From contig CAIIXF020000011.1 in the NCBI GenBank assembly GCA_903813345.2, positions 14,801,754 through 14,865,753 on the forward strand: DNA of 64,000 nucleotides. The letters are read 5' to 3'. The position numbers were made by a program, and so were the translations under genes. The notes beneath the pieces were generated by a model that saw only the letters and a program-made list of their open reading frames with translations, did no database searches and had not been told where the DNA came from. This stretch comes from Owenia fusiformis (Eukaryota; Annelida; Polychaeta; Sabellida; Oweniidae). Positions 3,291 to 33,378 of the stretch are shown here, one piece after another (position 1 is the stretch's first letter; each line of letters opens with the position of its first letter).

Positions 3291-6200
3291 CTTATTGTGG
3301 TCCTGGTTAGTGGGAGGGGGTTGCTTGATCACTGACTTAACAGTCTGCATTAGCGTATCAGTGGGTAGCACTTTGATAGCTCCTACTAGATCCACCAGCA
3401 GTAGTTGGTCTTCACATGTGGATGGTATCACCTACAAGTTATATAGGATTATCATTTATCTTCATTCTTATACTTCCTTTCATTTGGTCGCAACTTTTAT
3501 GTAATAATAACATGTCCACCAATACCACATTAACCTACTAAGAAGGAGGAATATCCTCCCTGATAGTACCATATCTTCATGTTAATATGAACTTCTATTT
3601 TATTGACTTATATAAGTCTTATGGCAATCATGACTTAACATCATCGCTGAGATTGGTTGAAAAAACATTTATTCATCACATTGCTAAGCATATTATGAAA
3701 ATATAAGAAAGACATTATGAGATTACCCTTTTTCCTTTGTAGCTATTCTTCTTTCTCCTGTCATTCCACACCACAGCAAAGGCCCCAAGTAGGTTGACCC
3801 CATGGTGCAGGGATATGGGACTCAGAAACTCCAATATGTATTGGCGCACAGTCTGCAAGGTAACACAGTGATCTGACTATCTTGTAGGAAGAAAACAAAA
3901 CCAGTAGAAAGTTGGGAGAACTCTAATTAGCACTGATAAGATATTTCCTGAATGATAATTACTTTTTAAGGATGGACAAAGTTGAAACTGCCCTTTGATT
4001 TTTGATATTCAATATAAAGTATATCCTATAACTCAGAGTGTCTGTGAGTTTAAGAAAAAGCTCTTAATGCACATACCCTTGGTGTTCCAATCATCCAACA
4101 AGGTTCAGTTTCACCATCTTGCACTCTTTCCTCAGATATCTCTACAGCCCTCCAAAGTGTAGTGAAACTGGCGATGATTCTGGGGAGATTGCTCAACAGT
4201 CTTCTCCTGGCCTCCATCACAGGGGAGACTCCTCCAACTGCATCCTTAGGAGGACTCGGCTCCTAAATGTATGGAGTAAAATGTATTTGATTAAATTAAG
4301 CAACAGTCTTCTCCTGGCCTCCATAAAAGGTGAGACTCCCGGGGTGAGACTCCTCCAACTGCATCCTTAGGGGGACTTGGCTCCTAAATGTATGGATTAA
4401 ATGTATTTGATTAAATTAAGCAACAGTCTTCTCCTGGCCTCCATAAAAGGTGAGACTCCCGGGGTGAGACTCCTCCAACTGCATCCTTAGGGGGACTTGG
4501 CTCCTAAATGTATGGATTAAATGTATTTGATAAAATTAAGCAACGGTCTTCTCCTGGCCTCCATTACAGGTGAGACTCGTCCAACTGCATCCTTGGGGGG
4601 ACTCGGCTCCTAAATTGATGGATTAAATGTATTTGATTAAATTAAGCAATAGTCTTCTCCTGGCCTCCATTACAGGTGAGACTCCTCCAACTGCATCCTT
4701 AGGGGGACTCGGCTCCTAAATGTATGGATTAAATGTATTTGATTAAATTAAGCAACAGTCTTCTCCTGGCCTTCATTACAGGTGAGACTCCTACAACTGC
4801 ATCCTTAGGGGGACTCGGCTCCTAAATGTATTGATTAAATGTATTTGATTAAATTAAGCAACAGTCATCTCCTGGTTTTCTGATGACACTATAAACAGGC
4901 AAACCCCTACTGCTTCACTAGGGGGACTCAATCCAAAATGTATGTGATAAATTTTTTCCATTTCTAATTTTGGTGTATTTTTGTAGCATGTTGTTGCTTT
5001 GTATAAGATTAATTTTGTGTGTTTGCTGTTCTTAAACATCTAGAATTCTGGAATGTGTTCTTTTAAATAATTCTTAATACCCTACTTGAGGTATGTCTTA
5101 CCCTTGCGCCTCCTATAGGGTTGAACACATGTATAAGGTTGCCTATGATTTGCGTAGCAGAACTTCCTGAGGTGATGATGCTGCCTATGTCAGTAGGCAT
5201 TGGAGTACCTGGAAAACATTCAACCTGACCTTTTAGAGATTTGGATTAAATAGTTTTAAATGAAAGCAATTGGAATATAAACAACCTTTCTGTGTGGCCA
5301 TATATTGGAAGGTCAAGTGAGAAGTGATTATGCTGGATATTGATATTTGTCAACAATGTAAAGACACATTTTAGGAAATGTTATTTGATTTATAATTGTA
5401 AATATATATTACCTATTGAAACCCTCTGAGTGCTGTCCAGTATGCAATAATGACATATTATGGTCAGGTTCTCCAACATTGTAGCCACATGGTCTGCAGG
5501 GACTTTCTCTAACTCAGTTGATCTGTAAATGTAAGTACATGTATACAGTACAAAGCATGTATCAGTATCCCATATTGTGTAAGTTCCTTTATGATCATAT
5601 AAGGATCATAAACTAAGGAATTTTTACACAATATGGTCATATAAGGATCATTCAATAAATTGTCAAATGGATGAAAGGGTTTAAGTTTACCATAATTATT
5701 TTGAAAATGTTAAATTGGACTCACCCTGAAAAGCTGCCTTGGTCTGAGTAGAGACTGGCCAACTGCTCTATGTTACGACATAACTGGCTCACGATCGTCA
5801 ACACAATATGAGGAAGCGATCTCCCCATATATGGTAATGCTGATATCACTATGGCAACCCAATGATGATGCATATGCGACATATGAGGTTGTTTTAAGGC
5901 ACTTAGTAATGCAGATATGAACATCCCTTGGTAGATGATTGGTTGATCCGATGTAAATTTCACTGACGTTAAAGTGGGCTTAAAATGGACCAATGGATGA
6001 TCCCAATTTGTATCCAATCCAGGAGTTACTTCTCCTGGTTCTGATTTCAACCCCTTTAAATGATACTCCAGGACCACTAACACCAACAAAAGTTTAAGCA
6101 TTTTCACTTGGAATGTTTCATTGCTATGAGCGTCCATATTGTCATCATTAAAGTTGATGATCGCCTCGGTCACGTGACCTTTGAACTGGTCATCTGTGTC

Positions 6201-9200
6201 TGTGCGTCTCCGATTGTTATATACAGATGCCAACACACAGTGTAACACAGACTTCTGGACTTTGCATTTTGAGAGTAGATCTAGGATGAATGAGCTGAAC
6301 TGTTTGCCGCTGTCTTTAGAGAGAGTAACAAGCTCTGAACACAGGAATGTGAGGATCTCGGTGCTTTGTATTTGGACCTCTTTGTTCCCAATGAGTTCCT
6401 CTTGGGTGAGTGAACTCATCATAAGGTTGGGGTAGTAGCTTCTGATGAAATACAAACACACCGAGATGATGATTTCAACGAACATGCTGGTCCTGTATGA
6501 AGCAAGGATTTCATTGGATAGCTCACTGTGGAAGTTCTTCCCAAAGACAGATCTCCGTTGTCTTGCTAGTAACATCTGGAGCTGAGCTAAATGAGGCGTC
6601 TGGACATTGCTGATGTTTGTTGTGGCCACTGCGCATGTAACAAGCCTCGGATTGGCCAACAGTATGGATTTCAGTATCCCTAATGCATAAAGCGTTCTCC
6701 TAAAGTCATACTTCTGTGTATATAGAAGTATGTGAGTGTGAAGTGGATGTACTCCAGTGAGTGTGTTATGATTTGTGTCATTTCCACCATCTGCTTCACT
6801 GCACGTGTCAATCTCTGAATTCTTTGTATCAATACAATTGAGAATATCTTCATCTCCCATTGCGCTTTCTCTAGAGTTCATACTGATTGTTCTGGATTTG
6901 AATTTATCCCTTGGGTTTTGAGTCTGGAAAACTTCATCAGGAGGAGCCTGTCGCTTAATTACACCATCCAGGATTTCATTAATGATATCAGTGACTATTT
7001 CAGTAACAGTGCATTCCTGATCTTGTGTTTCACTTTTTGTATCTTCTTCGATGTTTGAAAAATTGATTCCTTCTTTTTTACAAGTCTCTGCATCCAGTCG
7101 TTTAGCATTTGTGATTTTAGACAAAGAAATATCAAATCCATCAAACAGCAAGCTTTTATCTAAAGATGAATTTGAACCAAAAGGATTCAATCTCAAGTTA
7201 ACTTGGTTGACATCAACTTTATCGAACGAGAATTCATTTTCTGAAAACCGACTATTTGAGCCAACTGTCTGCATTCCTTTGTTACCTAAAGATGTCAGTG
7301 TGGTAGATCTGACCTGTTCATCTGCTGTTTTCTTTCTGATGACTGGCTTAGCACCCTTTGGGTTAACATGATAGATAACATTACCCCCTTCGCTTGAAAT
7401 TGCATAAATTCTGGCCTCAGTGACGACCATTTCTTCATCACTTGAAGATATGGAAAGTTTCACATTTTTGGGTTGATGGATGTTCACATGTTGGATCGAT
7501 ATCCTGGAAAACAAGTATGAAAAGTTTAAATAATTTCACATTTTATCAAACTGTGAAGCTGGGAAAATGAGTGAACTTTCTATATGTATTTATTGCTATA
7601 ACACTTTAAATTCGTGCAGGTCCATAGCCAGGGGGTGGGGAGTTCGAACAAACTTTCAAGTACTTTTGGGCCAAAGTTGTCAAATGTAAAGCCACTTGGC
7701 AAAAGTTAGCTGTGGGCCTTTCATGTTTGAGATTTGAAAGGACATATTTCCTGTTTATTTACTGAAGCACATTTAACATGTATTGGTGTTTTTGAAAATG
7801 TTTGAGGATGTCAGATTCTAAAAATTTCAAATACCACCACCATTTTCGAATTTATGAATAACCATTTCCAAATAAATTATAAAATAAACAATATACAAAA
7901 TTGAAGAATTCAAAAATAGTTCCACCACTATCCCCATCTACAACTGCTTCATTAGGTAATATGTAAATGTCAGATATGTGTGTGGATGGACTTTAAATTG
8001 ATATAAAAATAAAATAAAATATAACGTAAAACTACATTAAGTTTGTCCACCACCAGATTTAAGTCATAAATCTACTTACGTCCTATGAGCAATCATAATA
8101 TTGAAAATTGACAGTTATTCAACATTTTAAAATTATAAACAATTTGCAATTTGCTATATCCATTCAAGACTTCCAAGACATTTTCACTGTTTTTATTTAC
8201 TGGTTGCGTCAGCAATCAAAGCTTATATTTATATATATATATAAATGTACTTGAATTATTCAACAAAATTGTTACTGAATGGCAGACACTTTCTAATCAT
8301 CCTTCTAGAAAATGAGTCATAAAACGAATCATAAAAAGTGATGTTCGTGATTGTGTAATTCTTGAGACAGATAGCGTTCCCAGCCTATATTCTCCCAGTA
8401 TAATGACTTACAGTTTAATTTAAATGACGTCTCAACAAATTCTGAAAGTATGCATGAACCAAATTCACTTTTATCTATATACAAGCATACCTTGCAGTAT
8501 CTGGATGGAGTAATAGTAACAGGACAGGCTCTAAAACACGGGCAATATCTCCCCTCTGTATGGCATGTGTCAGCCAGGTCTCTGTGAAACATTTGGCTGG
8601 GTTGTTACCAGACTGTAGGCTGTCAAGCATTGTGAACATTGACCTGTAAAACATACAACACATGCTATATCTCCCCTCTGTATGGCATGGGTCAGCCAGG
8701 TCTCTGTGAAACATTTGGCTGGGTTGTTACCAGACTGTAGGCTGTCAAGCATTGTGAACATTGACCTGTAAAACATACAACACGTGCTATATCTCCCCTC
8801 TGTATGGCATGGGTCAGCCAGGTCTCAGTGAAACATTTGGCTGGGTTGTTACCAGACTGTAGACAGCAGTGAACATTGACCTGTAAAACATGGCACGTGG
8901 CATGGGTCAGCCAGGTCTCAGTGAAACATTTGGCTGGGTTGTTACCAGACTGTAGGCTGTCAAGCATTGTGAACATTGACCTGTAAAACATACAACACGT
9001 GCTATATCCCCCCTCTGTATGGCATGGGTCAGCCAGGTCTCAGTGAAACACTTGGCTTGGTTGTTACCAGACTGTAGGCTGTCAAGCATTGTGAACATTG
9101 ACCTGAAAAACATACAACACATGCTATATCTCCCCTCTGTATGGCATGGGTCAGCCAGGTCTCAGTGAAACATTTGGCTGGGTTGTTACCAGACTGTAGG

Positions 9201-12200
9201 CTGTCAAGCATTGTGAACATTGACCTGTAAAACATACAACACGTGCTATATCCCCCCCCCCCCTCTGTATGGCATGGGTCAGCCAGGTCTCTGTGAAACA
9301 CTTGGCTGGGTTGTTACCAGACTGTAGGCTGTCAAGCATTGTGAACATTGACCTGTAAAACATACAACACGTGCTATATCCCCCCTCTGTATGGCATGGG
9401 TCAGCCAGGTCTCTGTGAAACACTTGGCTTGGTTGTTACCAGACTGTAGGCTGTCAAGCATTGTGAACATTGACCTGTAAAACATACAACACGTGCTATA
9501 TCCCCCCTCTGTATGGCATGGGTCAGCCAGGTCTCTGTGAAACACTTGGCTGGGTTGTTACCAGACTGTAAGCTGTCAAGCATTGTGAACATTGACCTGT
9601 AAAACATACAACACGTGCTATATCCCCCCTCTGTATGGCATGGGTCAGCCAGGTCTCAGTGAAACATTTGGCTGGGTTGTTACCAGACTGTAGGCTGTCA
9701 AGCATTGTGAACATTGACCTGAAAAACATGCACATTTTTCTTTTAATTAAAGGTATAAGTTTCACATACCACACTCTGATAGCACTGGGTAAGACTTTAT
9801 CATTATAAGCCAAAGTGGTTTAAAACTTTATATGGAACTTTTAATCAAATTTTTTTTTCATAGATTTAATAAGTGATACTGTAAGTACATAGGATTGAAA
9901 CAAATCTTCCCCTCACTAAAATATATGATAAAAGATAGCAATAGAAAAACTATTCTCTGTTTAGACAAATACAAAATAATTCTGTTGAATGGAAATGAGT
10001 ACATGTACATTGAAAAATGTTCATCTGACAATGTGAAGAAAGAATGTGGGCTGCAAATTATATTAGTTTTGTTCATGACACATTGTCAAATACATGTATT
10101 TTTATAATCTAAAACCTAAATAAAAAGTTGATTATCTATACAGTATAGGCTGCATTCAAGACATGGCTTTATAACTGTAACATTATTTTTGAATGATTTG
10201 ATAACTCTGTCATTTATAAACAAGAGAAATGTCACCACATGTTACAGATACCAAACTCTGAAGGCCGAGCTCCAAATGCCAACTGGTGGACACTGTCCAC
10301 AAAAAATGTAGAGACTATAACAATATGTTTCCACTTGTGTGGTGACATAAAATGGCGAGCAGAAAAAGTGAATTGACTTATAATTGTCAAAAGGAAGGTG
10401 ATTTTACTCATGTGATTGTATCAAAGGTTACCTATCAAATGTCCTTGTGTTGCCATGAGGGGCCTTGGTTGTAATGTCTCTGGTCAGATGCCACAGTATA
10501 GCAAAAGCCAGATGGTATTACTCATATGATTGTATTTCAAAGGTTACCTGTCAAATGTCCTTGTGTTGCCATGGGGGGCCTTGGTTGTAATGTCTCTGGT
10601 CAGATGCCACAGTATAGCAAACTTCTGATGGCCTTCAAGTGTCTGAAGCTGGAAAAAGACATACAAGTACAATATATTACATCTACTTTGAATACAAAAC
10701 AATACTCTGAAAACATCAATTTCAAGTCTTCCATTGATGTTTTTGAATGAACCCTTATGGACCTTATACAAGCTAGGAATGTCTTTTCCACATCATTCCA
10801 TACACGTGTTGAAAATGCAAATTTTTATAAAAAAACAATACATTCAATACATACATACTTTTAATTAAGAAATACGTGGGTTGTCCCAGAAGTAATGCAC
10901 TATATGCTCTAACTTTCTTGAATATGCTTCAATTCAGCTGAAATTTTGTGTATATTTCAATTAAAGTGTTATCTATTATATCCTGAAGTTTCAGCATCAG
11001 ATGTTAATGTTAAGTCTAAAAATGGTTGCTATAGCAACACAGGGAAAGGGGTGGGCGGGGCAGGTACTCTTGTACACACGTGTTGGCGCTACACGTTGTG
11101 AACCCAAAACAAGTCGTTGGTGGACATGAAAGCCAGATCGAATCTCAACAAGATTGTTTTGACCACCTGTGAAAATCATTGCGTGTGCATATCAACATGT
11201 TACGTAATGTCTTCAATTCAACTTTTCAATTGATCCTCTCTCTTGGCGAGGCAAGAAAATAGAATATAGAAGCGAGTACGTATACGAGACCGAAGAGCAG
11301 GGCTACTAGTTTCAATACACCCCGCAGGGTCTAGGCACAAACATTTTCTGTAAACGAAATTTCTCCCTGCCATTTTGAATTTTGCAGACGAGAGGGAGAT
11401 GCGAAAAGAACTGAATGGCCTAAACTGACCAATATAAGTGCACTGAACGAAACACTTAGTACAGAGCCAGGGAATTGATCTTGAATATAACCCAGCTGAA
11501 GCATTGACTTTGTTCACAGTTTATAGAAGGCATGAATACAGTCATGTTCGAATTAGTAATATGCCTCTTCACCATCCACCCTCTAAACAAAACCAAATGC
11601 ATGTATAATTTAGTGTGGTCGTTTTTGTGGCACCAGGGCATTAGGAATACATGTATAAATAGGTAGGGGGGGGGGTTCTTACCTCTACATCCCTGCTCAG
11701 TGCAGTGCCAATTACATCCTCACAAACCCATGCACTTGGGGCAGCCTGGTGTAAAGCATAGAGTAGCTCTACACTCCTCTTGTGGTACTGGGGCGTTACT
11801 TCATCCAGCCGCTGCCACAAGTCTAAAGCTATGATCTGAAAATGCAGTATCAATGTAGAGAAATTCAGGATGTCCTATTAACAACTATGTGTTCAATATG
11901 ACTGACCTTCCAGTGAATTAACTTCAGATATTTATAAATACTTGTAAATGAACTGGAATAAAATAAGCTGTTTTGTTATATCTGGAGCACCCTGTAATAT
12001 TCTTAAGTACAAAGACAAACATACCTTGTAAAAATCAGTCCTTTTATTCAGGTAAGACAAATGTCTAGCAGATAAAGTTGGTCTGATCACCACAGCAACT
12101 GTGCCCTCATGTGCTGACTGTCGTCTGCCATTTTCTGTGACCTTGACCTTGGTTTCATCAAGCACTGACTGAGTTAGGCTGATCAGTTCCAAAATGGTAG

Positions 12201-15200: not shown

Positions 15201-17227
15201 TGTCAGGTCTGGTGAGCTGATTATTGTACATTGGGAAACAAAGGAGGAGAAAGTCCAGCATGCTTCGTTGCACCAAAACACTAGAGTCTTGCACCCCAGC
15301 ACACATTGCCTGTACCTGGAGACAATTTCAGAAAAATACAAGAAAGTACTCTCTAATATTTAAAGGTCTTGTGAAATGCTAAAAATATACTTTTTGGGAA
15401 TTAAAATATTATTTCCTGTGACTATAGAGATATTTTAATTTTAGCATTTTACAGCTGTGTGATGTCACACAGAAAAGCTGTATTGCCACAAATTTTCCTT
15501 TTTGCCTTATGTCACTCAATTTGTGTAAAATTTCAATTTACTAACCATTAGATCTATATTGGTGCCAATGAAGTAGAGCTGATCCTCCATAGTATGTCGC
15601 CTGTTAAAGTGGCTGAGAGCGTAAGTGGCGGCAGGTAGACGAATACTTGGACACGTCAACACACATTCCCACAGGCACCCATAGAAGAATATAGGATCAG
15701 CTGCTTCACAGAATTCCTCTAACAATGCATTTGTCCTGGAAAAATAGTTAAATTCATTTTTATCATTTTTTAATCATTCTATTTAGCCTAGGGTTAAATA
15801 TTGCATTTGTCCTGGAAAAATAGTTACATTCATTTTTATCATTTTTTTTTATTTCTATTTAGCCTAGGGTTAAATATTGCATTTGTCCTGGAAAAATAGA
15901 TACATTCATTTTATCATTTTTTAATCATTCTATTTAGCCTAGGGTTAAATAATGCATTTGTCCTGGAAAAATAGTTACATTCATTTTTATTTTTCATTCA
16001 TGTTTTTAATCATTCTATAAACTATGGTTTACAGTTTTTACACTAATATACCCACTTGGAGTCTACATGTTATTTAGGACTACATCTACAGTAGAACCTG
16101 TATAAGTGGAATGTCTTTTGGGACAATAAAAGTGTTCCACTTGTGAGACGTTCCACTTCCAAAGGTTAATTAACATGAAGACAATGGGCCACAGGACTTT
16201 AAAAACCTGTTCCAATTGTGAGATGTTCCATTTAGCAGTTTCTACTTTCTACTGTATATTTAACCCTTTCACGACGATCTTTTTGGCACCACTATTTTTA
16301 TTTACATACATCAATGAAATGGCAATATCTCCACTTCTATCCAGTATTTTAACACCAAATTTTGGCAAGTATTTGACATGTGATAATGCATATCATCATG
16401 AGGATACCTTACCTATCATGAGGATACGTTACCCATCATGAGGATATGTTACCTATCATGAGGATATGTATAAAAATAAAATAAAAGGCAATACCTATCA
16501 TAATGCTCAGAACCTTCCTCTAGACCTGGTAGTAAGCCCAACAGTAATCCAGTCAGCCCAGGTTTGATATACTTTCCCAGCGCAACAAAATGATTCTCAT
16601 ATATGGATAACAGCATTGGTCTCACATTCATCGCAGAGAACCCTAGTAGTGGGAACAGCCCAGCACTGTATGTGAACATGTCCTGAGCTAGACGTGATGT
16701 GCCAATGCATTTGAAGATGATGTCATAGGTCTCAAGAGCTTTCAGGTGTACGCCACTGGGTAAAGCAGGGTGAAGACATTGAGCTAGACGTTTGCCGATC
16801 GTCACACGTTTTGGTAAGACTGGGTACTTCATGTGAGCCAACAGGACCTATATAGTTTTAATAATAAGGAACATTTTTCAATCGATTTTTACAATGATTT
16901 CAACAACATAGAAGTGACAATGAAGTAATTAAGAATTACCATATTAGTTGTCTTCATATGAATCTCATTTCTCATTTTATTAAAAAAGAATCAACGAAAT
17001 AATTGATTTTGATCTTTACAAAAAAAGTCTACAAATTCCATGGTCTGTAGGTTTGGATTATAAAATAAATACACATGTACCTTGTTCAACTTTTGTAGAG
17101 CTGAAATAAGATCAGCCCATTCGCTGGTATATTCAAAACTTTTGAGCGCCTTTTCTGTCTGTGAGACATAGGCGCGATACTTGGAGTCTGCCAGCAGCTC
17201 GCACTCTTCCACAGTTAAAGTTGCCAT
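3291..17227 (-). CDS. DOP1: Dopey family protein DOP1, 17 coding exons, C-terminus beyond the left edge
   Basis: Dopey proteins are large cytosolic, membrane-associated proteins that work with MON2 in Golgi/endosome recycling and transport (family knowledge). Exons on the minus strand: 17081-17227, 16495-16847, 15546-15735, 15137-15315, 14244-14895, 13217-13895, 12462-12605, 12025-12287, 11683-11835, 10548-10642, 8491-8643, 5725-7503, 5413-5522, 5102-5208, 4077-4244, 3727-3852, 3291-3431. All have AG/GT borders and join without a phase break into 1813 codons. Recognised family segments: [15 protein letters not shown] near residue 40, [19 protein letters not shown] in exon 2, [16 protein letters not shown] across exons 4-5, [10 protein letters not shown] in exon 10, [11 protein letters not shown] in exon 11, [14 protein letters not shown] in exon 16. 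The ATG at 17227 is chosen because [12 protein letters not shown] aligns with the vertebrate N-terminus; the reading frame stays open upstream into a 5' exon part that begins at 17273. Vertebrate DOP1 has about 2,460 residues, so roughly 600 are missing to the left. No disabling change seen. Confidence 0.95.
4187..4935 (-). repeat. tandem array of DOP1 exon 15 acceptor plus 5' exon part
   Basis: Exon 15 (4077-4244) starts after CTCCTAAG with GATGCAGTTGGAGGAGTC. The same acceptor plus about 55-60 bases of exon, ending AGGAGAAGACTGTTG, recurs upstream in the transcript with acceptors near 4365, 4485, 4592, 4697 and 4805, and a degenerate copy near 4912. Spacing is 106-120 bp; two units carry an extra 14-bp piece. 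Intronic filler (TTAATTTAATCAAATAC) replaces the rest of the exon in each copy, and none has the exon's 3' part or donor. Reading on from a decoy acceptor reaches an in-frame TAA at the filler. Confidence 0.85.
5571..5640. repeat. short hairpin-forming inverted repeat
   Basis: ATATTGTGTAAGTTCC and the later GGAATTTTTACACAATAT are near-perfect reverse complements around a GATCATATAAGGATCAT core. It sits in the intron between DOP1 exons 12 and 13. Too small to assign to a family. Confidence 0.6.
7615..7700. repeat. fragment of the CCATAGCCAGG MITE family
   Basis: GTCCATAGCCAGGGGGTGGG followed by GAGTTCGAAC matches the left end of the complete element at 43556-43765. No right end was found, so this is a truncated copy in a DOP1 intron. 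Confidence 0.5.
8551..9735 (-). repeat. tandem array of DOP1 exon 11 acceptor plus 5' exon part
   Basis: Ten head-to-tail copies, period about 122 bp (one shortened). Each holds the acceptor TATGTTTTACAG, then GTCAATGTTCACAATGC and some 110 bases of exon 11 up to GATATAGCACGTGTT. The copy nearest 8491 is the real exon 11 (8491-8643), the only one that continues into [11 protein letters not shown] and a GTATG donor. The other nine lie upstream in the transcript, the farthest acceptor at 9719-9720. Each decoy encodes [18 protein letters not shown], runs into the next unit out of frame (122 is not a multiple of 3) and stops. Confidence 0.92.
10229..10348. repeat. inverted-repeat element, ATGTCACCAC ends
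   Basis: Begins ATGTCACCACATG and ends GTGTGGTGACAT, 120 bp, no coding capacity. The same ends occur at 32486-32515 and 56035-56200 and as a fragment at 517-532, so it is a small dispersed family in this genome. Confidence 0.55.
10405..10620 (-). repeat. 113-bp tandem duplication of the donor side of DOP1 exon 10
   Basis: Exon 10 is 10548-10642. Its last ~73 bases, its GTAAC donor and the following intron bases are repeated at about 10405-10506. The copy keeps the donor (GATAGGTAACC in place of GACAGGTAACC) but lacks the exon's 5' part and acceptor. Offset between equivalent points is about 113 bp. This is the mirror image of the acceptor-side arrays in the same gene. Confidence 0.85.
10876..11190. 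mobile_element. possible mariner-like remnant (left end only)
   Basis: GTGGGTTGTCCCAGAAGTAATG resembles a mariner-type terminal repeat. I found neither a matching inverted right end nor a transposase frame with the expected D,D motif between here and 11680. The boundary at 11190 is arbitrary. It lies in the intron between DOP1 exons 9 and 10. Confidence 0.3.
12640..12751. repeat. long near-perfect hairpin
   Basis: Arms of about 50 bases, TTATGTCCCTATCATTGAAT... against its inverted copy ending ATAGAATA/ACGGACATAA, meet at a 10-base loop near 12690. It lies in the intron between DOP1 exons 6 and 7. Together with the adjoining element at 12754-12982 it probably derives from an inverted-repeat transposon. 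Confidence 0.75.
12754..12982. repeat. 229-bp element with GTATTACATACCTA inverted ends
   Basis: The left end GTATTACATACCTA (about 12755-12768) is mirrored by TAGGTATGTAATAC at about 12969-12982. No open frame of note. Non-autonomous DNA element in a DOP1 intron, directly beside the hairpin at 12640-12751. Confidence 0.6.
13935..14070. repeat. degenerate AT-rich minisatellite
   Basis: Repeated ACATGTTCAACACAATAACA-type units of about 25-30 bp in the intron between DOP1 exons 5 and 6. There is no resemblance to either flanking exon. Confidence 0.6.
15722..15985 (-). repeat. tandem array of DOP1 exon 3 acceptor
   Basis: The acceptor CTATTTTTCCAG and the first ten or so bases of exon 3 (GACAAATGCA) recur with a period of about 75 bp. 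Three extra copies lie upstream in the transcript of the real exon (15546-15735). Each unit is filled with an intronic block ATTTAACCCTAGGCTAAATA. Reading on from a decoy reaches an in-frame TGA within about 16 codons. Here almost only the splice site itself, not the exon body, was multiplied. Confidence 0.85.
16089..16254. repeat. 166-bp MITE with TA target duplication
   Basis: Starts CAGTAGAACCTGTATAAG, ends TTTCTACTTTCTACTG, and is flanked by TA on both sides, as expected for Tc1/mariner/pogo-type elements. The internal GTGTTCCACTT motif recurs at 47628-47925 and 62945-63140, marking a dispersed family. It lies in the intron between DOP1 exons 2 and 3. Confidence 0.65.
16394..16470 (-). 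repeat. 20-bp minisatellite resembling the DOP1 exon 2 donor
   Basis: About four units of TATCCTCATGATAGGTAA (minus strand) lie just inside the intron after exon 2. The real donor at 16495/16494 reads TTATGATAG|GTATTG, so ATGATAGGTA is shared. The match is short and could be chance; it may be a donor-side example of the junction-derived arrays. Confidence 0.5.
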
Positions 17228-18329
17228 CACCAAGGTCTGGTGATCAACAGTGTTTGTTAGCGCCTCAAATTTACTGAAAATATAAAGGTTTTTATTGATT
17301 TGATTTCAATGAATGGTTTCTATAGTCCAGCAATAATTGTTGATACATGTTAAGCTCCAAATTGTGACTGATGATCACATGATGTCAAAACTTTGTGTTG
17401 TATGTTAATATATGTATTCTTGCTGCTCATGGGGTTACTTATGGTCACATGATGTGAAACTTATTCCCTGGAAAGTCCTTATTACTGCTAGCAAGGAAGG
17501 AGGAAAGTACTAATGACTCATTAGGTCATGTGTCCATAGAACTAGACTACATTTAAAGTAAGAATTAGTGTTCTTAAGAACTGATCCCCTCTCCAGTAGA
17601 TCATACAATGACCTAATAAACACTTCATCTTATGACCACATCAGTGTAGACGAAAAAATTATTGATGAACAGAAAAGTCTATTGCATACATTGCTATCAA
17701 CAAATAATTGATTTGTCTTCAAAATACATTGTCAAGTCATTGTCAAACAATATATAAAAAATGACATTTACACCATACAAGCTTCAGCATTTATTAATGA
17801 CATGATTTTCCTAGAAGAGGGTTCAGTGATTATTATTACAGCAAATCAAATTCAATCTTCTGACAAACCATGAAATATTTTAAAAGTGGATTTTCTCCTT
17901 ACACAGTAGATGCCCTGCAGTGCAGCTTGTACAGGAATTATTCAGTAATTTCTTATTTTGAAGACACAATTATAAATGCAGATGTGAAACCATTTGTTCA
18001 GATTAGAATTGTGAGTTTTCAGATAGGCATGTACAGTGCTGGTATATATTAATTGATCAGTCGTTTAATTGGCATATTTTCTTGGATTTTAACCTTTAGT
18101 GTCCCAAACTCCCACAAACTGCAGAAAAGTATACCCCATAAATCATATTTACCAAAATGAGTGTCTCCAAGGCTTCACACCAGCGTATGCATAATGCATT
18201 TGTCACGAGTTTGAGCTGAAATTTCGCCAAAATGAAGTAGGCTAAGGGTAGTCTCTGCCAGGTTTGTTTATTGTGGTAAGCTTGTAAGTGCTCAGAAGCA
18301 AATAATTCACGTGCGCAAAATAATCAAAT

Positions 18330-19975: not shown

Positions 19976-20503
19976 GGATCACAAACATGTTGATTCATGA
20001 AAACATTCTTCGATTTGGTAGGAATTTATCCATCATTTGCAAGTATGAAGCTTTGGATTCATTTATTGTGCTACTTAAAGTGAGCTGGAATTATTTTTCT
20101 ACCGCTTGGGAGAGTTTGAGACCCGAAACTTAGAATTTAGCTCATTGTGACAACTTTTGATGGTTGAGGTTTATTAATGTCTCTGACTTTACACATATTT
20201 CTGACCGAATGCTTGACATAAACGGCAATCGAGTGCGAAAACTGAACAGAATGCTTTCGCTTTTTTCTAGCAAATGCGTGACAATCACACCTACTGCGTG
20301 AGGGCTGAGTATGCAAAGTGTGTCTAAAATGCAGAATCATAAGAAGTCTGAATGACAATACATGCACACATGCATGCCTGGCCCCAAACAGGATGTTGGT
20401 AACTTATTTATTTATACGCATGTTGCTGCTTTATACATTTGTCTATTGAATTGTTTTGTATTCCATCTCCAGCCTACCTAGCTTATACATGATAGTGTGG
20501 ACC

Positions 20504-23500
20504 ATGTCACGCTCAGAGAACCATATTGAAGATGAATCCAAAGTAGAGAATAAGGAGGATGATATCGAAGTACCTGCACCAGATGTAGGCTTTGTTGCAG
20601 GAGGCAGTATCCCACCACCACCTATTGGTGAACCACCAAAATTCATTCAGCATCCACATAAACCTACGGGTGAAGGTGAGTACATTCTCCTTTCATACAG
20701 GTATATTTTTTAATGTTCACTCTACATGGACATACCTTATGTACAAAACAGTCTGTGTAGTACAGAAGATGCATGGGCATAACAAAAACAGCATTGCTTC
20801 AGATGACATTATTAAATATTGTAGTATTATATTCTCATTGTGTTTGAGAGAAATGTGAATTGTGAATACTGAACCAGAAGCCTAGACTAAAATGGCCAAG
20901 GTTTCTTAACAATTAATAACAATTTTATCCCTGGATCCCAAAATATTCATATTTGGTATGGGAATACTTTAAGCATTGCACACTGTCTAATGACACTTTT
21001 AGTAGAAGGTGGCATTTTTTTAGATGAATGCAACATAAAATCATTCATAATGTTGAAGTGGTATGTTTATTTTGTGTAGGTGTACATGAAACACCATATT
21101 GTGTATTGTCAGTCCATTGGAGTTTTTTAATATTTTCAGCCCCAATTGGAAGGATTGAGAGAGAATTTCTTCTTCACAGGAGTATAAATCGTGGTGATAT
21201 CACAGAAGTGAAAAAGCTAGTGTTGCAAGACATCAACATTAACTACAAGCTCTATTATAACACCCCTTTGACCCTGGCAGCCAGGTTAGGTCATGTTGAC
21301 ATTCTGAAAGTCCTCATTGAAGCAAATGCTGATGTTGATAGAGTTGGATGTGCAAATAAACTATGTACTCCATTGATATATGCTGCAAGTAAGTGTGATA
21401 TACAATATGATTTCTTTTTAAAATACTTATTCATAAATCTTGGGGTGACCCAATGTTTTCTAAGCCTTTTTAGCACTCCATAACTTGTTTATATCATTTG
21501 TAAAAAGTCAGTCTGAAAACTAAACTAACCTACTACTGCAAAAAGCCTTAATGAGTTTACCTTCGTCTAAAAAAATACCCTCTCATTCATGCTGTTACAC
21601 CCATTCCAGAGGGTGAGTAACCCCAGAGTTCAAAGATGACATACACTGATAATGTAAACCTGTATTGAGATGACATACATCACTGATTGATCAAAAATTA
21701 ACAAATAAATGAAGTCATCAATGGAGGCTTCCAAATTTTCAAAAATATGCTTTGAATAATATTATGTTTATTTCTGGCATATTAACCAGTCTCATATAGC
21801 TTGTTATTTCAAATCAAGAGAACACAATGTGTACGGAATATGCCTTAACATGAATTAAAATATCACATCGAAGTGTAGTATTTGGAAACTTAGGCAAAAG
21901 ATGTAAATATGTCTGTTATCTCTAAAGCTCAGGTGCCTTCCCTCCTCTTTATCCACCCTGCATATACCAAGGGTGAAAAGTAAACTTTATCATTGACTTT
22001 TTGTCGGCATGTAAGCAGTAGGAAAAAGGCTATCACAATTTCACAAAAGATGGAAAGTGTTTTCACATTTGATTTTAGAATATCATGAGAATACATCTAC
22101 AGCTGCTGAGATGATTGCTATGTTGCTATAATGGACTGTTTTCACATCTGATTGTAGAATATCATGAGAATACATCTACAGCTGCTGAGATGATTGCTAT
22201 ATTGTTATAATGGAATGTTTTCACATCTGATTGTAGAATATCATGAGAATACATCTACAGCTGCTGAGATGATTGCTATAATGCAACAATGGAATGTTTT
22301 CACATCTGGTTCTAGAATATCATGAGAATACATCTACAGCTGCTGAGATGATTGCTATATTGTTATAATGGACTGTTTTTTCATCTGATTGTAGAATATC
22401 ATGAGAATACATCTTCAGCTGCTGAGATGATTGCTATATTGTTATAATGGACTGTTTTCACATGTGATTGTAGAATATCATGAGAATACATCTACAGCTG
22501 CTGAGATGATTCCTATATTGTTATAATGGACTGTTTTCACATGTGATTGTAGAATATCATGAGAATACATCTACAGCTGCTGAGATGATTGCTATAATGC
22601 AATAATGGACTGTTTTCACATCTGATTGTAGAATATCATGAGAATACATCTACAGCTGCTGAGATGATTGCTATGTTGCTATAATGGACTGTTTTCACAT
22701 CTGATTGTAGAATATCATGGGAATACATCTACAGCTGCTGAGATGATTGCTATATTGTTATAATGGACTGTTTTCACATCTGATTGTAGAATATCATGAG
22801 AATACATCTACAGCTGCTGAGATGATTGCTATATTGTTATAATGGACTGATTTCACATCTGATTGTAGAATATCATGAGAATACATCTACAGCTGCTGAG
22901 ATGATTGCTATATTGTTATAATGGACTGTTTTCTCATCTGATTTTATAATATCATGAGAATACATCTACAGCTGCTGAGATGATTGCTATTTTTTATAAT
23001 GGAATGTTTTCACATCTGATTGTGGAATATCATGAGAATACATCTACAGCTGCTGAGATGATTGCTATAATGCAATAATGGAATGTTTTCACATCTGATT
23101 CAAGAATGTCATGAGAATACATCTACAGCTGCTGAGATGATTGCTATATTGTTATAATGGACTGTTTTCACATCTGATTGTAGAATATCATGAGAATACA
23201 TCTACAGCTGCTGAGATGATTGCTATATAGCCATAATGGACTGTTTTCACATCTTATTGTAGAATATCATGAGAATACATCTACAGCTGCTGAGATGATT
23301 GCTTTATTGTTATAATGGACTGTTTTCACATCTGACTTTATAATATGAGAATACATCTACAGCTGCTGAGATGATTGCTATATTGTTATAATGTAATGTT
23401 TTCACATCTTATCTCACATCTGATTGTAGAATCTCATGAGAATACATCTTCAGCTGCTGAGATGATTGCTATATTGTTATAATGGACTGTTTTCACATCT

Positions 23501-25341
23501 GATTGTAGAATATCATGAGAATACATCTACAGCTACTGAGATGATTGCTATATTGCTTGAAGCTGATGCTGATATAAACAAAGCAGATATCTTGAGACGT
23601 ACACCTCTACACTGGGCAGCATTTATAGGTAGACCTTTGCATTTATGTTTATTATTAAAAATAAAATTGAAACTGCAGATTAAAGGAATTTTGTAATATA
23701 TTTTTTATCGCAAAAGTACTATATTGTTATTGCCTTGTGTAGGCAGTTGGGTATCACATAAATCTAGTGGCAATATAAATCCAGGAAAGTTTTTTTATAA
23801 ATCCTGTCAAGTGTCAAGATCTGAATCAGTCCGTCCATCCAGAAGATAACTTTAACACTAATCTACAGATTTTCTTCATGTTTGGTGAAAAGATGTACAT
23901 AGGTGAATAGTTTTATGCAAAAATTATTTTCAAGATGGCCACCGCTTTGAAAATGGCAGAATTTTTAAATGCAAAAAATTTATATTTTGAATAAGTAGAA
24001 GTATATTTCTCCATTGTTTTGTTTGTGTTTCAAGGTAATCTAGAGGGAGTGAAGCATCTGTCAAGATGGCCACTGAAATTCAAAATGGCCACCATTTTTC
24101 AGCATTTATATTATTCAATGTTTTGTTTGTGTTTCTAGGTAATCTAGAGGGAGTGAAGCGTCTGGTAAATGCAGGTGCTGATGTTAACATAGTGGACACA
24201 CATGAGAGAACTGCCTTACATAGAGCAGTAGAGAATACAACTGCTAACAGAAGTGATATTATAAGGTAAAACTTAAAATCAATTTCAATGTGAGAGTGGA
24301 CATTAAGATATGTGGAACAACTGAATGGGATATGCCTAATATATGTAATTACGTGTACCTCATAAATGGAAAGAGCTTTTGAAATATGACTCATGGGTGA
24401 TCTATCATATTAGAATAATAAATTACCTTTATGACCTTAAATCTTTTGCCAGAGATCTCAGTTGCTTTACAAATTTGGTCTTTTCACAAAGAACTGAAAA
24501 TCTATACATACTACTGTATATCATACATTCACTGATTTATTCACGGACTGACAGTTCTTGGTGTTACTTTTCCAATTATTTTATTTTAATGGACCAGATG
24601 TGTTTGGTTCAAGTTCATTTTCTACCACTGTATTTCTATAATGAATGTCAACTCAATGATATGTGTCTTTTCAGGTATCTAGTCAATAATGGATCTAACA
24701 TTGATGCAAAGGATATGGAAGGTTGGACTCCTCTTACTATATCTGTCATAATGGGTAACCTTGACAACATATCTGAACTCCTATCTTTAGGGTCAAATGT
24801 CAATTTGAAGGACAATTTCAAAAGACCCCTTATAATGATAGCACAGGACCCCATAAACCAACCAAAAATTGCAGAGCAGTTAATAGCAACTCGGATGATT
24901 AACCCAGATAAAGGATTTATGTATATTTTCCCAGCAAGGGATAACATTAGTAAACAGAAGGCTTGTGACATCAGTTATGATGTCATGAAGCTATTACTAA
25001 ATTACGGAGCAGACCCTCACTGTTTCGGTTCACTTGGAGGTCATGGATTTTTCCCGTCAGCATTTTACCATGCAGTTATGCATCTCGATATATCATGTGC
25101 TATGCTCCTTATAGATGCTGGTGGTGATTTGAGACTACACAATTTTGCTCATTTTCAACTCAGTGACAACAACAATAAAATGGTGTGTGATGTTAAATTT
25201 GTACTGGAGCAGAGGGGTTTAATGGAACTATGCAAGTTAGTTATAAGACAGCACATCAGTGGAAACAAAGAGAAAACTGCTTATATGTTGAATCTCCCTA
25301 TGCCTTTAGCTAAGTTTGTAGCTAATGTAGGTCCAAAGTAA
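20504..25341 (+). CDS. ankyrin-repeat SOCS-box protein A (ASB-like), 5 exons, 444 aa
   Basis: Exons: 20473-20675 (ATG at 20504), 21140-21388, 23509-23628, 24139-24265, 24675-25341. They join in phase to 444 residues. Residues 1-60 are acidic and proline-rich. At least six ankyrin repeats follow (e.g. NTPLTLAARLGHVDILKVL, RRTPLHWAAF, ERTALHRAVE), then weaker ones. The C-terminus looks like a SOCS box: a BC-box at about 404-413 (GLMELCKLVI: Leu, three residues, Cys, then hydrophobic) and a Cul5-type LPMP at 430-433. ASB proteins recruit Elongin B/C and Cullin-5 and present substrates for ubiquitination; by analogy so should this one, with unknown substrate. The start lies just after an acceptor, so the 5'UTR is spliced. 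It has a tandem paralogue at 29696-33378. Poly(A) signal at 25413. Exon 3 follows a long decoy array and exon 4 a single decoy. Confidence 0.88.
22079..23508 (+). repeat. 79-bp tandem array of ankyrin A exon 3 acceptor plus 5' exon part
   Basis: About eighteen copies precede the real exon 3 (23509-23628). Each holds TTTTCACATCTGATTGTAG, then AATATCATGAGAATACATCT and on to ATTGCTATATTG, i.e. the acceptor and first ~46 exon bases. It then breaks into TTATAATGGACTG instead of CTTGAAGCTGATG. The period is close to 79 bp, with a few shortened or lengthened units near 23340-23430. A decoy acceptor joined to exon 2 would read KYHENTSTAAEMIAILL and then TAA. Copies differ by scattered single bases, so the array is not brand new. 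Confidence 0.93.
24035..24138 (+). repeat. single duplicated acceptor of ankyrin A exon 4
   Basis: GTTTGTGTTTCAAG|GTAATCTAGAGGG at 24035 repeats GTTTGTGTTTCTAG|GTAATCTAGAGGG at 24139. The decoy keeps about 30 exon bases (to GTGAAGCATCTG) and continues in sequence (CAAGATGGCCACTG) that also precedes exon 4 in gene B. Gene B has no such second acceptor, so the duplication is younger than the gene duplication, or B lost it. Confidence 0.8.
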
Positions 25342-28407: not shown

Positions 28408-28724
28408 TTGGAGAGCAATTTTAAGCTTCAGTGAACTGTGAATGAAGCTATTTTAATCACTTTTGAATTGTGTTAGCCCAGGTATTGAAACTGTCAAGAC
28501 AAGGTAAATATTTCTCCATATTTTCAAGATAACTGTAATATATTTTATAGATAGCTAGATACTTGTATTATCTCAAAGAACTATTTTTAAGCTTCATTTT
28601 GATATAAAATATTTTAATATTGAAACTGTAATTTTGGAAATATTAGATAGTTTATGGATCAATTTAACCACTGACAAATTGATATTTTATGCAGTCATTT
28701 AAGTCAATTAATTGTTAAGATTGT

Positions 28725-28870
28725 TTAGGTGATTTAGATCATTTTCGTGATTTAGATCATTTTGATCATTTATGTCATTAGATCATTTTGATCATTTATG
28801 TCATTTAGATCATTATGTCATTTAGATCATTTATGTCATTTAGATCATCTATGCCATTTAGATCATTTTG
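28725..28870. repeat. GATCATTT-type minisatellite
   Basis: Units of about 17 bp (TTTAGATCATTTATGTCA and variants) repeated some eight times upstream of ankyrin gene B. Intergenic, no coding potential. Confidence 0.7.
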
Positions 28871-29695
28871 ATCATTTGGTTAGTAGTCAGTTAAGGTCAT
28901 TTTATACAGATTGATAATTAGACTTTTTCTATATTCATTACAACATTAAGGAAGTTGAACACTGATAGGAATGAACCTGTCAAGAAGCACTATTGGTTGA
29001 ATTAGATTTTATATCATAATAAACGTGTTTATTAATTTTAGAGGTTTTGTATGTTATATGTTATGAATGTATAATTCCCACGGATCACATTCTTCTCAAA
29101 CGTTTTGTATGGTAAGTATAGACATACATATATAAGGTCATTAAAATGGTATAATTTTTCAACCACATCAAAGACGTGATAATGAAATGTTTCATGTTTA
29201 AACCTTCTTTATTACTCAATTTCATATTATATTAATTATGTTACAAGTTGCTATATGTATTTATTAGGATGCTCACCTTTCTATGGGATCTTATTCATTC
29301 TATTGGCCATTCTATTTTTATGCGAAGACATTTGCTTTATTCTCTGATTTCGAGACGACATTTTTGCATTTCTTATAACTTCTGGAATTTTATAAGCATG
29401 ACAAAATAATTGGAATCTACATGTATATTATGAATGTATGAATATACAAATTGCTGAATCATATTTTTCTTTTGGATGTTTTGTTGTATGCGAACATGAG
29501 GCTCAATTAATATTCTCGAGCCACTATCTTTGTGTGGAACTAGTTAGGCCTATTGAGTTAAGACAAAATTAAGCATGTTTCTTCTGACTCCCTGTTTTGT
29601 TACTTCCTGCTAACTACATTGAGACCTTAATTGTCTTTTGCATTGTTTTGTATTCCACCTCAAGCCTACCTATCTTATACTTGTTAGCGTGGACC

Positions 29696-32600
29696 ATGTC
29701 ATGTTCAGAAAACCATACTTTAGATGAAGTAGAGAATAAGGAGGATGATAATGAAGTTCCTGTACCTGATGAAAGCTTTGTGGCAGGAGGCAGTATCCCA
29801 CCACTACCTCTTAGCGAACCGCCAATATCCACAAACCATCCACATAAAGCTACGGGTGAAGGTGATTATACATTCTATTTTCTTAAACCTCACTGAGGCA
29901 GCTACGCAAAAGAATCAATGTAGTTTATTTTAAAGCATATACAGCCTTACTAAACACCAAAGAAGTATGCATTCTTTTTGCGTTTTTTTGAAGAAATTGA
30001 CACTGGCAAGCTATCTAAAACCAATGTGGGACATTGACATAAGACGATTGACTGTCACGTGCAGTGCACTAAAACTGAAATAATTTTACCTTATTCACTC
30101 CATTCAATAATTGAATATTGTTTATTGTTAACACAAAAGAAATCAAATTTTTAACTGTACCTGGCCAGTTACACTCACTCACTTTTCAATACATTTACCT
30201 CATAGTCAATACAAAAGAAATCAAATTTTTCTAGAATTGGATCATGTACCATTTACCTTTCATAAGAGTCGATGTTTGGTTAAAGTTAGGTAAACCATTG
30301 GTACTTGTTTTCAGGGGAACTAATGGCCTCAGGGTAAGGCCCTCAGCTATTATTTATCCTAAAATCCAATACTCATAGTTTATCCCTAACACAAAGTTAT
30401 ATTTTGTCTTGTTCACTATATAGATATGTATTTTGTTTAAATCAGTCTATGTAGGACAGTTCATGATACTTGGGCATTGAAGTACATTTGTGCATTACAA
30501 AAACATTGCTTTGACATTATTTAATTTTATGATTTAAGCCTTGGACTCAGTGTTTTGTTTGCTGAATCATACCATGAAGGTGTTGTTATTGTACCAAAAG
30601 CAAGATTAAAATGGCCAAGGTTTAAGCCATATAATAACAATTTCATCCCTTGATCCCAAAAATATATGTGTATATGAAACATATCGCCATGTGTGTCTTT
30701 TCAGTCCATGAGAGTTTTAACTATTTTCAGCCCCAATTGGAAGAATCGAGAGAGAATTCAATCTTCACAAGAGTATAAATTGTGGTGACATCACAGAAGT
30801 GAAAAAGCTTGTGGTGCAAGACATCAACATTAACTACGAACTCTATTATAACACCCCTTTGACCTTGGCAGCCAGGTTAGGTCATGTTGACATTCTGAAA
30901 GTCCTCATTGAAGCAGATGCTGATGTTGATAAAGCTGGGTGTGCATATAAACAATGTACTCCATTAATATACGCTGCAAGTAAGTGTGCTTTATAATATG
31001 ATTTCTTTTTATGTAGTTATAAAATGACATGGCAGTGTGTTTCTATATCGAGATTCTTCGAGAAAAGACACATGAATCTAGGCTTTTGCTCGTTCACATC
31101 CGGGCAAGTCGCGAAACCTCATCTACAATTCGCCTCCGACCCAATCAGAAGTTTCCAATTTGAATGACATTGCATATTAATTCTTAAGTCTCGGAACATA
31201 TATTTATATATACGTCAATAACTTGGGATGACCCAATGCTAAGCCTACCCCCCTGAATGTGTTTTGAAAATTCAACCCCACATTTATGGGTTATCTAATA
31301 TCAGCCTATTTAGCACTCAACAACTTTTGACATCCCACAGAGAAGCCCCTGAGTCATGCTGTCACTACCCCCCCCCCCCACAGAGAACTAGTATTTACAT
31401 ATAAGATTTGTATCCTTAATAATGTGTATACACATTAAAAACGATACAAATCATATGCAAATCGTTCACTGCAACTTAGAATATCATGAAAATACATATA
31501 CACTCTACAGCTGCTGAGATGATTTTTGTATTGTTATAATGGACTGTTTTCACATCTGATTGTAGAATATTACGAGAATACATCTACAGCTGCTGAGATG
31601 ATTAGTATATGCATTGCAACAATGGAATATTTTTACATCTGATTGTAGAATATCATTAGAATACATCTACAGCTGCATAGATGATTGCTATATTGCTATA
31701 ATGGAATGTTTCCACATCTGATTCTAGAATATCATGACGATATATCTTCTGCTGCTGAGATGATTGCTATATTGCTATAATAGAGTGTTTTCACATCTGA
31801 TTGTAGAATATCATGAGAATATATCTTCTGCTGCTGAGATGATTGCTATATTGCTTGAAGCTGGCGCTGATGTAAACAAAGCAGATATCTTGAGACATCG
31901 TACACCTCTTCACTGGGCAGCATTTATAGGTAGTGTGTCTATTCTATTTAAAATAAACTTGAAACTGCCCAATTAAGGAATACTATGCTATATTTTTCAT
32001 TCTATGTACAAAATGTATATGCATCTTTTAGGTGGTGACATAAAAATTGACGTCATTCTTCGTAAAAGAACGTAGTCTTTCATAACTCAAATACCAGTTG
32101 ACTGATTTAATTGAAATTTTATGTGACAATGCCTCGAGACAAAGGAGCTTTGCTCAAGGAAACATTGTCAAGATGGCCACTGAAATTCAAAATGGCCACC
32201 ATTTTTCGACATTTATATTATTCAATGTTTTCTTTGTGTTTCTAGGTAATCTAGAGGGAGTGAAGCATCTGGTAAATGCTGGTGCAGATGTTAACACAAT
32301 GGACACACATGAGAGAACTGCCTTACATAGAGCTGTAGAGAATACAACTGCTAACAGGAGTGATATTATAAGGTGAAATAATATCATGTGATGAAGCATA
32401 TCAAAATATATGGAAATGAATAGAGTAAGACTATATAAATCTGGAGTAGAAATAATCCTGTTTTACGACGAAGGTCTCTTCTGTTTTTATGTCACCACCA
32501 AAAGTGGTGACATATTGTTATGGTCTCCGTTTTTTTGCGACGGTGGTTGGTGGTTGGAGGTTGGCATCCGGCGGTTGGTGGTTGGAGGTTGGCGTCCTGC

Positions 32601-33378
32601 GTCTGTAACAATTTCTTACAACTTCCTATAACTTAACAAATACTGTTTAGACTGACTTCAATTTTTTTTCCTATTATGACATACAGCTCAATGTTTGTTT
32701 ATATTTTTCAGGTATCTAGTCAATAATGGATCTAACATTGATGCTAAAGATGTGGATGGTTGGACTCCCCTTACTATATCTGTCATAATGGGTAACCTTG
32801 ACAACATATCTGAACTCCTATCTTTAGGGTCAAAGGTCAATTTGAAGGACAATTTCAAAAGACCCCTTATAATGATAGCACAGGACCCCATGAATCAAGC
32901 AGTAATTGCAGCACAGTTAATTGCTAATCGGATGATTAACCCAGATAAAGGATTCAGGTATATTTATCCAGCGAGGGATAACATAAGTAAACAAAAAGCT
33001 TGTGACATCAGTTATGATGTCATGATGCTGTTACTAAATTACGGAGCAGACCCGCACTGTTTCGGTTCACACATAAGTCATGGATATTTCCCGTCAGCGT
33101 TTTACCATGCAGTAATGCATCTCGATATATCGTGTGCTATGCTCCTTATAGACGCTGGTGGTGATTTGAGACTACACAATTTTGCTCATTTTCAACTCGG
33201 TGACAACAACAATAAAATGGTGTGTGATGTTAAATTTGTACTGGAGCAGAGGGGTTTAATGGAACTATGCAAGTTGGTTATAAGACAGCACATCAGTGGG
33301 AACAAAGAGAAAACTGCTTATATGTTGAATCTTCCTATGCCTTTGGCTAAGTTTGTGGCTAATATAGGTCCAAAGTAA
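29696..33378 (+). CDS. ankyrin-repeat SOCS-box protein B (ASB-like), 5 exons, 443 aa
   Basis: Exons: 29665-29861 (ATG at 29696), 30731-30979, 31807-31929, 32246-32372, 32712-33378, in phase throughout. This is a tandem paralogue of gene A with identical exon borders and phases; exons 2 and 5 differ at only scattered residues. Differences include a shorter and divergent N-terminal region (MSCSENHTLDEVENKEDDNE), an extra His in exon 3 (ILRHRTPLHW) and several changes around residues 300-350. The ankyrin repeats, the BC-box (LMELCKLVI) and LPMP of the SOCS box are all kept, so both copies look functional as Cullin-5 receptors. Some intron sequence is also shared (e.g. AAAATGGCCAAGGTTT before exon 2), so the duplication took in whole genes, roughly 20448-25490 and 29642-33545. 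AATAAA follows at 33439. Exon 3 has its own decoy array. Confidence 0.88.
31480..31806 (+). repeat. short tandem array of ankyrin B exon 3 acceptor
   Basis: Four decoy copies (starting near 31480, 31567, 31648 and 31727) precede the real exon 3 at 31807, with a period of about 80 bp. The nearest decoy shares gene-B-specific bases with the true exon (ATATCTTCTGCTGCTGAG), whereas the distal ones keep the ACATCTACAGCTGC form. The youngest copy therefore came from gene B's own exon after the gene duplication. Confidence 0.88.
32486..32600. repeat. partial ATGTCACCAC-family element with GGTTGG repeats
   Basis: TTTATGTCACCACC and AAGTGGTGACATA form a short palindrome, followed by a GGTGGTTGGAGGTTGGC direct repeat. 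Similar ends occur at 10229-10348 and 56035-56200. It lies in intron 4 of ankyrin gene B and is absent from gene A. Confidence 0.5.

Follow-up and report, generated by a model that had tools for sequence, protein, structure and literature searches.

Splice junctions multiplied in tandem in DOP1 and two ankyrin genes of Owenia fusiformis resemble amphioxus mirages

A stretch of 64,000 nucleotides of the Owenia fusiformis genome (contig CAIIXF020000011.1, positions 14,801,754 to 14,865,753; hereafter the window) holds three genes, DOP1 and the two paralogues ankyrin A and ankyrin B, in which tandem units of 76-122 bp contain 6 of 28 splice acceptors and 1 of 29 donors. We interpret these arrays as mirages, tandem duplications across an exon boundary known from amphioxus, which would have arisen by ordinary boundary duplication and turnover and would be tolerated where one whole exon remains and the exon-proximal acceptor is used; we give this reading a probability of about 0.65. 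The phenomenon is thus of a known kind, and new here are its density, the numbers of decoys (the supernumerary copies of a junction) that are intact, the comparison between paralogues and an initial, though biased, estimate of an excess at acceptors.

Exon models were derived from the sequence and validated by their open reading frames, and 30 bases centred on each of the 57 resulting junctions (28 acceptors, 29 donors) were compared with the flanking 600 bases in both directions. A local copy matching at 27-30 of 30 bases was found at seven junctions only, namely the acceptors of DOP1 exons 3, 11 and 15, of ankyrin A exons 3 and 4 and of ankyrin B exon 3, and the donor of DOP1 exon 10; the next best junction reached 19 of 30. 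These are exactly the seven that a first-pass annotation of the same DNA had named, and its figure of six affected among about 30 acceptors becomes an exact 6 of 28. The arrays were detected both by Tandem Repeats Finder (TRF) and by an independent lag search, except for the two-copy duplication at ankyrin A exon 4, which was recovered by the lag search alone. The junction arrays are real features of the sequence.

Of the 17 clusters of local repeats that the lag search returned over the window, ten fall within the annotated DOP1, ankyrin A and ankyrin B genes, and in seven of them the repeat spans a splice junction. For DOP1, where five of roughly seven repeats had at first been thought to touch a junction, we count four clear cases among six on the annotated exons (four of seven if the array at 2615-2783 belongs to an intron further along DOP1) and a doubtful one at 16394-16469. 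The units of this last array carry ATGATAG/GTAA and agree with the exon 2 donor in 12 of 16 bases, a level that 0.38% of DOP1 16-mers attain equally well; it is possibly, if doubtfully, a second donor-side mirage with a much shorter unit.

According to the lag search, the unit measures 106 bp at DOP1 exon 15, 122 bp at exon 11, 116 bp at the exon 10 donor, 76 bp at exon 3, 79 bp at ankyrin exon 3 (A and B) and 104 bp at ankyrin A exon 4, and its exonic part ranges from about 10 to about 98 bp among the arrays. Counting the true one, there are 7 copies of the junction at exon 15, 10 at exon 11, 4 at exon 3, 19 at ankyrin A exon 3, 5 at ankyrin B exon 3, and 2 each at ankyrin A exon 4 and the exon 10 donor, which leaves 6, 9, 3, 18, 4 and 1 decoys at the six acceptors, respectively, or 41 in sum (Table 1). 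The units are the genes' own junctions and differ in length, and the first-pass conclusion that they stem from no single transposon is upheld by blastn: when one unit from each of the seven loci was compared with the whole window, the off-locus matches were confined to those between the ankyrin A and B exon 3 units and to that of the ankyrin A exon 4 unit with the single copy in its paralogue. An origin from a transposon or introner was rejected on the same ground, since blastn places no unit at an unrelated site within the window.

Table 1. Multiplied junctions, their decoys and a doubtful further array (positions within the window)
Feature	Position	Strand	Details
DOP1 exon 15, intact copy	4077..4262	-	true acceptor 4262; open frame; acceptor copy 28/30
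Exon 15 acceptor decoys, six, each with about 66 bp of exon	4263..4933	-	spacing 106-121; TRF, lag search
DOP1 exon 11, intact copy	8491..8643	-	true acceptor 8643; open frame, junction-copy test
Exon 11 acceptor decoys, nine, each with about 98 bp of exon	8644..9729	-	unit mostly 122 bp; AG 9/9; TRF, lag search
Copy of exon 10 3' part and donor, downstream	10421..10547	-	copy end 10432; lag 116; use leads to a stop
DOP1 exon 10, intact	10548..10642	-	true donor 10548; exon model, junction-copy test
DOP1 exon 3, intact	15546..15735	-	true acceptor 15735; open frame, junction-copy test
Exon 3 acceptor decoys, three, each with merely 10-12 bp of exon	15736..15990	-	unit 75-76 bp; AG 3/3; TRF, lag search
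20-bp array resembling exon 2 donor, DOP1 intron 2	16394..16469	-	doubtful donor-side case; TRF, lag search
Ankyrin A exon 3 acceptor decoys, 18, each with about 49 bp of exon	22058..23508	+	unit 79 bp; AG 15/18; TRF, lag search
Ankyrin A exon 3, intact	23509..23628	+	open frame, junction-copy test
Ankyrin A exon 4 acceptor decoy, one, with 26 bp of exon	24015..24138	+	decoy exon start 24035; lag 104; lag search
Ankyrin A exon 4, intact	24139..24265	+	open frame, junction-copy test
Ankyrin B exon 3 acceptor decoys, four	31480..31806	+	unit about 79 bp (spacings 86, 83, 79, 79); AG 4/4; TRF, lag search
Ankyrin B exon 3, intact	31807..31929	+	open frame, junction-copy test

The true acceptor leads into a stop-free frame at all six affected sites, and reading from any decoy as far as the true donor runs into a premature stop (41/41). 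AG is retained in 37 of the 41 decoys; in the exon 15 array, where the decoy exons start at 4383, 4503, 4609, 4715, 4821 and 4933, it is present in five and the outermost copy is degenerate and without it. Over 40 bases, seven of the nine exon 11 decoys are identical to the true site at 39 positions and 17 of the 18 ankyrin A exon 3 decoys at 36-40, so that local sequence cannot discriminate between true and decoy acceptors in these two arrays. The corresponding values are 33-36 in five of six decoys at exon 15, 32-34 in all three at exon 3, 36-37 in three of four at ankyrin B exon 3, and 39 at ankyrin A exon 4. By a score matrix trained on the 22 acceptors without arrays, 23 of the 41 decoys do at least as well as their true site (exon 11, 7/9; ankyrin A exon 3, 11/18; ankyrin B exon 3, 3/4; exon 3, 1/3; exon 15, 1/6; ankyrin A exon 4, 0/1).

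Mismatches to the consensus were counted with ankyrin A exon 4 omitted, as with two rows the decoy is its own consensus and the count is zero by construction. They amount to 4/80 for decoy AG and to 229/3097 for the tract and exon columns (P = 0.52), and a faster decay of decoy AG than of tract or exon bases is accordingly not seen. Two other candidates were tried and set aside. Weak true acceptors as a cause give a mixed picture, the score being low at three of the six (DOP1 exon 15, ankyrin A and B exon 3) and high at the other three. Recursive splicing as a general escape was rejected because, among the six affected exons, a GT start is found in ankyrin A exon 4 (GTAATC) and DOP1 exon 11 (GTCAAT) only.

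The ankyrin A and B exon 3 arrays have unit, phase and joint in common, which argues for one origin and hence for six independent events rather than seven; the first-pass view of a repeated independent outcome thus holds for several events, with the two ankyrin exon 3 arrays merged into one. The shared array appears either to be older than the gene duplication or to have been exchanged between both genes. Its units have a mean identity of 0.91 in A and of 0.73 in B, against 0.81 when A is compared with B, and decoy number has come to differ widely (18 vs 4); similarly, the exon 4 acceptor is duplicated in ankyrin A and single in ankyrin B. At 31728-31929 in ankyrin B, the intact exon 3 and the adjoining decoy have three changes in common, two of which occur in none of the 19 ankyrin A copies and one in two of the 19, pointing to sequence exchange or re-duplication after the A/B split. 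Some of these shared derived changes alter the protein relative to ankyrin A, and their direction may be either from decoy to exon or from exon to decoy.

Likeness among units varies between the arrays. In ankyrin A exon 3, units 1, 17 and 18 are 0.81-0.85 identical to the rest and the other 16 units 0.89-0.95. Adjacent and distant units hardly differ in likeness in this array (0.911 vs 0.908) and at exon 11 (0.896 vs 0.888), while neighbours are the more alike elsewhere, with 0.788 vs 0.671 at exon 15, 0.837 vs 0.791 at exon 3 and 0.785 vs 0.689 at ankyrin B exon 3.

At each locus a short segment spanning the boundary underwent head-to-tail duplication, probably by replication slippage or unequal exchange, and we propose that the array then grew and turned over through unequal exchange and local duplication. 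Turnover is shown by the variation in copy number and between units and by the changes shared by exon and decoy in ankyrin B. Such a duplication would persist because a whole exon survives it, in the form of the acceptor copy joined to the remainder of the exon or of the donor copy joined to the exon start, and the decoys left in the intron would be close to neutral. The spliceosome would then pick the exon-proximal acceptor despite near-identical upstream decoys that are transcribed first, presumably through exon definition, that is, pairing with the exon's own donor together with downstream exon sequence. No function of the decoys is required. The first-pass annotation had stressed that the intact exon is always the copy nearest the rest of the gene; this is true as an observation and uninformative, since geometry forces it: only the last copy of a duplication covering an acceptor boundary, or the first in the case of a donor, joins the rest of the exon.

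The arrays could also meet the junctions by chance with no excess at all, an idea that concerns the excess only and is compatible with their being mirages. Because the pattern was the reason for choosing this window, all P values given here are optimistic. We collapsed each array to one unit, dropped the units randomly in the three genes and removed wholly exonic placements, as a null that takes selection into account. With introns this short, the straddling chance per long unit is 27-41%, and 2.05 of six independent events would be expected to straddle a junction against the six observed (P = 0.0015); including three short-unit arrays, six of nine straddle (P = 0.0076). Circular shifts of the junction set along the collapsed genes gave 2.29 expected against seven observed (P = 0.0031), or 1.92 against six without ankyrin B (P = 0.0051), and 1.65 against four in DOP1 alone (P = 0.07). 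Fisher tests gave P = 0.0019 for three genes and 0.0009 for five, treating adjacent positions as independent, and other five-gene values (5e-6, 3.5e-5) were set aside because they leave out three two-copy repeats of the intron at 41.8-64 kb whose lag exceeds 70. The excess over permuted positions that the first-pass annotation named as support is therefore present within these genes: within the window, junctions are struck more often than by chance, with P values that are optimistic. Overlap by chance alone strikes us as improbable, although it is the strongest of the alternatives.

Several results weigh against ordinary duplication and neutral retention as a full account. Each of the seven long-unit arrays of the three genes spans a junction, with none confined to an intron; the limit for this class, at least 70 bp, was fixed after the data had been seen, and the 2615-2783 array was omitted. 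Neutral retention alone would lead one to expect wholly intronic duplications to be common too. In DOP1 and ankyrin A, moreover, circular shifts place five events at acceptors against 0.96 expected (P = 0.0014) and one at donors against 0.96 (P = 0.66). Neutral retention does not explain the junction excess or its confinement to acceptors. Furthermore, decoy AG (4/80, P = 0.02) and tract (58/714, P = 0.0004) are less variable than the intron further upstream (75/514). This is weak evidence, which may reflect either poor alignment at the unit joints upstream or some constraint on decoy splice signals, and it is the sole result that seems to lean towards such constraint. Finally, the correct splicing of these genes is an assumption made from their sequence.

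The first two of these results would be accommodated by a mutational process that favours exon starts, in which the 3' end of the intron duplicates more often than other DNA (through a chromatin step, a paused polymerase, an R-loop or breakage in the polypyrimidine tract) and mirages are its footprint. Donor- and acceptor-side duplications would spare the protein equally, and tolerance by itself would then predict no asymmetry, in line with such a process. However, the events number six, in a window chosen for them; the acceptor/donor split taken alone (5 vs 1) has P = 0.22, and DOP1 by itself stays at the 0.07 given above. Amphioxus cases include donor sides (PMC3087553, PMC3902484), the exonic share of the unit varies almost tenfold in the arrays described above, and the mechanism is a proposal. 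We regard this process as a little less probable than chance overlap. Its wider form, in which exon starts are hotspots of tandem duplication in this genome and a junction-linked process seeds mirages preferentially at acceptors, also beyond cephalochordates, is at most a tentative suggestion and, in our estimate, unlikely.

Functional decoys, acting as upstream poison acceptors that lower or tune gene output with array length as a dial, are considerably less probable still. The prevalence of AG, the high matrix scores of more than half of the decoys, the stop that follows all of them and the low variation of AG and tract would suit such a role, and 18 vs 4 copies in paralogues would mean differing output; in Caenorhabditis elegans, intronic minisatellites have been tied to multiple alternative splicing (PMC4039745). 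Yet decoy AG is kept no better than the tract and exon columns, the number and presence of decoys vary between close paralogues, and known mirages reportedly leave splicing undisturbed (PMC3087553, PMC3902484). Least probable is an artefact of collapsed or wrongly repeated reads: long near-identical arrays are difficult to assemble, and one amphioxus mirage "appears to be aberrantly assembled" in a draft (PMC3087553), but the units here differ mutually, with indels and partial units, one array type recurs in two paralogues with different content, and seven loci fall at precise junctions.

Boundary mirages, as we favour, would make the 9- and 18-decoy arrays natural experiments on 3' splice site choice, in which position or exon definition must decide because local sequence cannot. 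If exon starts were hotspots, introns with up to 18 mostly near-identical upstream acceptors would likewise be natural tests of exon definition. The arrays are candidate intermediates for intron gain, as proposed in PMC3087553, and ankyrin B exon 3 illustrates a possible route for writing decoy sequence back into a coding exon, the direction being either way. The density of 6 in 28 acceptors points to a genome that would allow the phenomenon to be both counted and accounted for.

The host genes are as follows. DOP1 lies on the minus strand at 3291-17273, with 17 exons visible and 1,819 stop-free codons, and matches the Pfam families Dopey_N (4.9e-102) and TPR_DOP1 (1.8e-120). Ankyrin A (20471-25341) and ankyrin B (29663-33378) have five exons apiece, open until a single terminal stop, with Pfam ankyrin repeats and a SOCS box scoring below the cut-off. 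A DOP1 intron also holds an inverted repeat resembling a miniature inverted-repeat transposable element (MITE) at 12637-12753, with 41-nt arms, 88% complementary, and a 35-nt spacer. A gene for a secreted repeat protein follows at 35812-39589; its last exon contains an in-frame 27-bp (9-residue) coding repeat of about seven copies at 39086-39293, the sole wholly exonic cluster of the lag search, with a unit that is a multiple of three. A long first exon at 41246-41803 has no Pfam match, and no further exon was placed between it and the window end.

Among other repeats in the window, a second MITE-like inverted repeat (34710-34828) has 58-nt arms, 86% complementary, and a 3-nt spacer, and an intergenic two-copy tandem duplication of 112 bp (40556-40762) lies off every junction placed. 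Large dispersed direct repeats occupy 51045-52541 and 56916-58120. Those about 5.7 kb apart measure 253 and 300 nt (95-98%) and 121 nt (93%), and the same set includes one of 132 nt (100%) at a distance of 1.4 kb. The window has a GC content of 0.348 and its coding sequence a GC content at third codon positions of 0.398, which would be lower than is usual for Branchiostoma; Rfam at gathering scores gave no match in the whole window.

The first-pass annotation knew of no named class for such arrays. The name mirage is reportedly due to Canestro et al. (2002, NAR [Nucleic Acids Research] 30:2871). Our arrays match the mirages published for amphioxus (PMC3087553, PMC3902484), minisatellite-like tandem duplications across the intron/exon boundary of Adh3 and of the globins BflGb6 and BflGb9 (PMC3087553), to which troponin C and PGBD5 were added (PMC3902484). 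Mirages have hitherto reportedly been described in cephalochordates, where concerted evolution within a cluster, edge units excepted, and a length that is unstable between haplotypes or somatically are also ascribed to them. They have units of 10-72 bp in Adh3, 60 and 108 bp in PGBD5 and 150-160 bp in the globins (PMC3087553, PMC3902484); reverse transcription PCR and Adh3 data suggest that they spare regular splicing, and the mechanism of their origin is called unclear (PMC3087553). Among the matches listed, no further literature on such arrays was recognised from title and start of abstract in open-licence papers, which says little of the wider literature. As in amphioxus, the tandem unit here spans the exon/intron boundary of its host gene (7 of 57 junctions), the authentic exon is intact and in frame (six of six acceptor sites), either side may be duplicated (six acceptors, one donor) and many but not all units keep their splice signals (AG in 37/41). 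Unlike those mirages, the present ones, known from one sequence alone, comprise up to 18 decoys, three acceptor arrays in one gene and a bias towards acceptors.

Other systems share part of this architecture. Intron gain by tandem duplication is said to have been treated by Rogers 1989, Zhuo 2007, and Gao and Lynch 2009. It is also the subject of PMC4974935. The arrays described here resemble that process in being internal duplications that copy splice sites and differ from it in that no new intron results; intron gain of this type was rejected for our loci, where the decoys sit in an existing intron and nothing splits the true exon, which stays in frame. Human genes in segmental duplications carry variable internal tandem repeats at exon-intron boundaries (PMC2812944), like ours in location and in copy number differing between paralogues; in that case the mean unit length is 30 bp and the boundary repeats can give rise to new introns and to alternative splicing, whereas here the frame permits one acceptor only. 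The polyubiquitin gene UBC contains arrays of dual-specific splice sites (PMC10809524) and likewise has its splice-site motifs multiplied by a tandem array, but the sites there are in use and mark off entire coding monomers, whereas the units in DOP1 and the ankyrin genes are partly intronic and out of frame.

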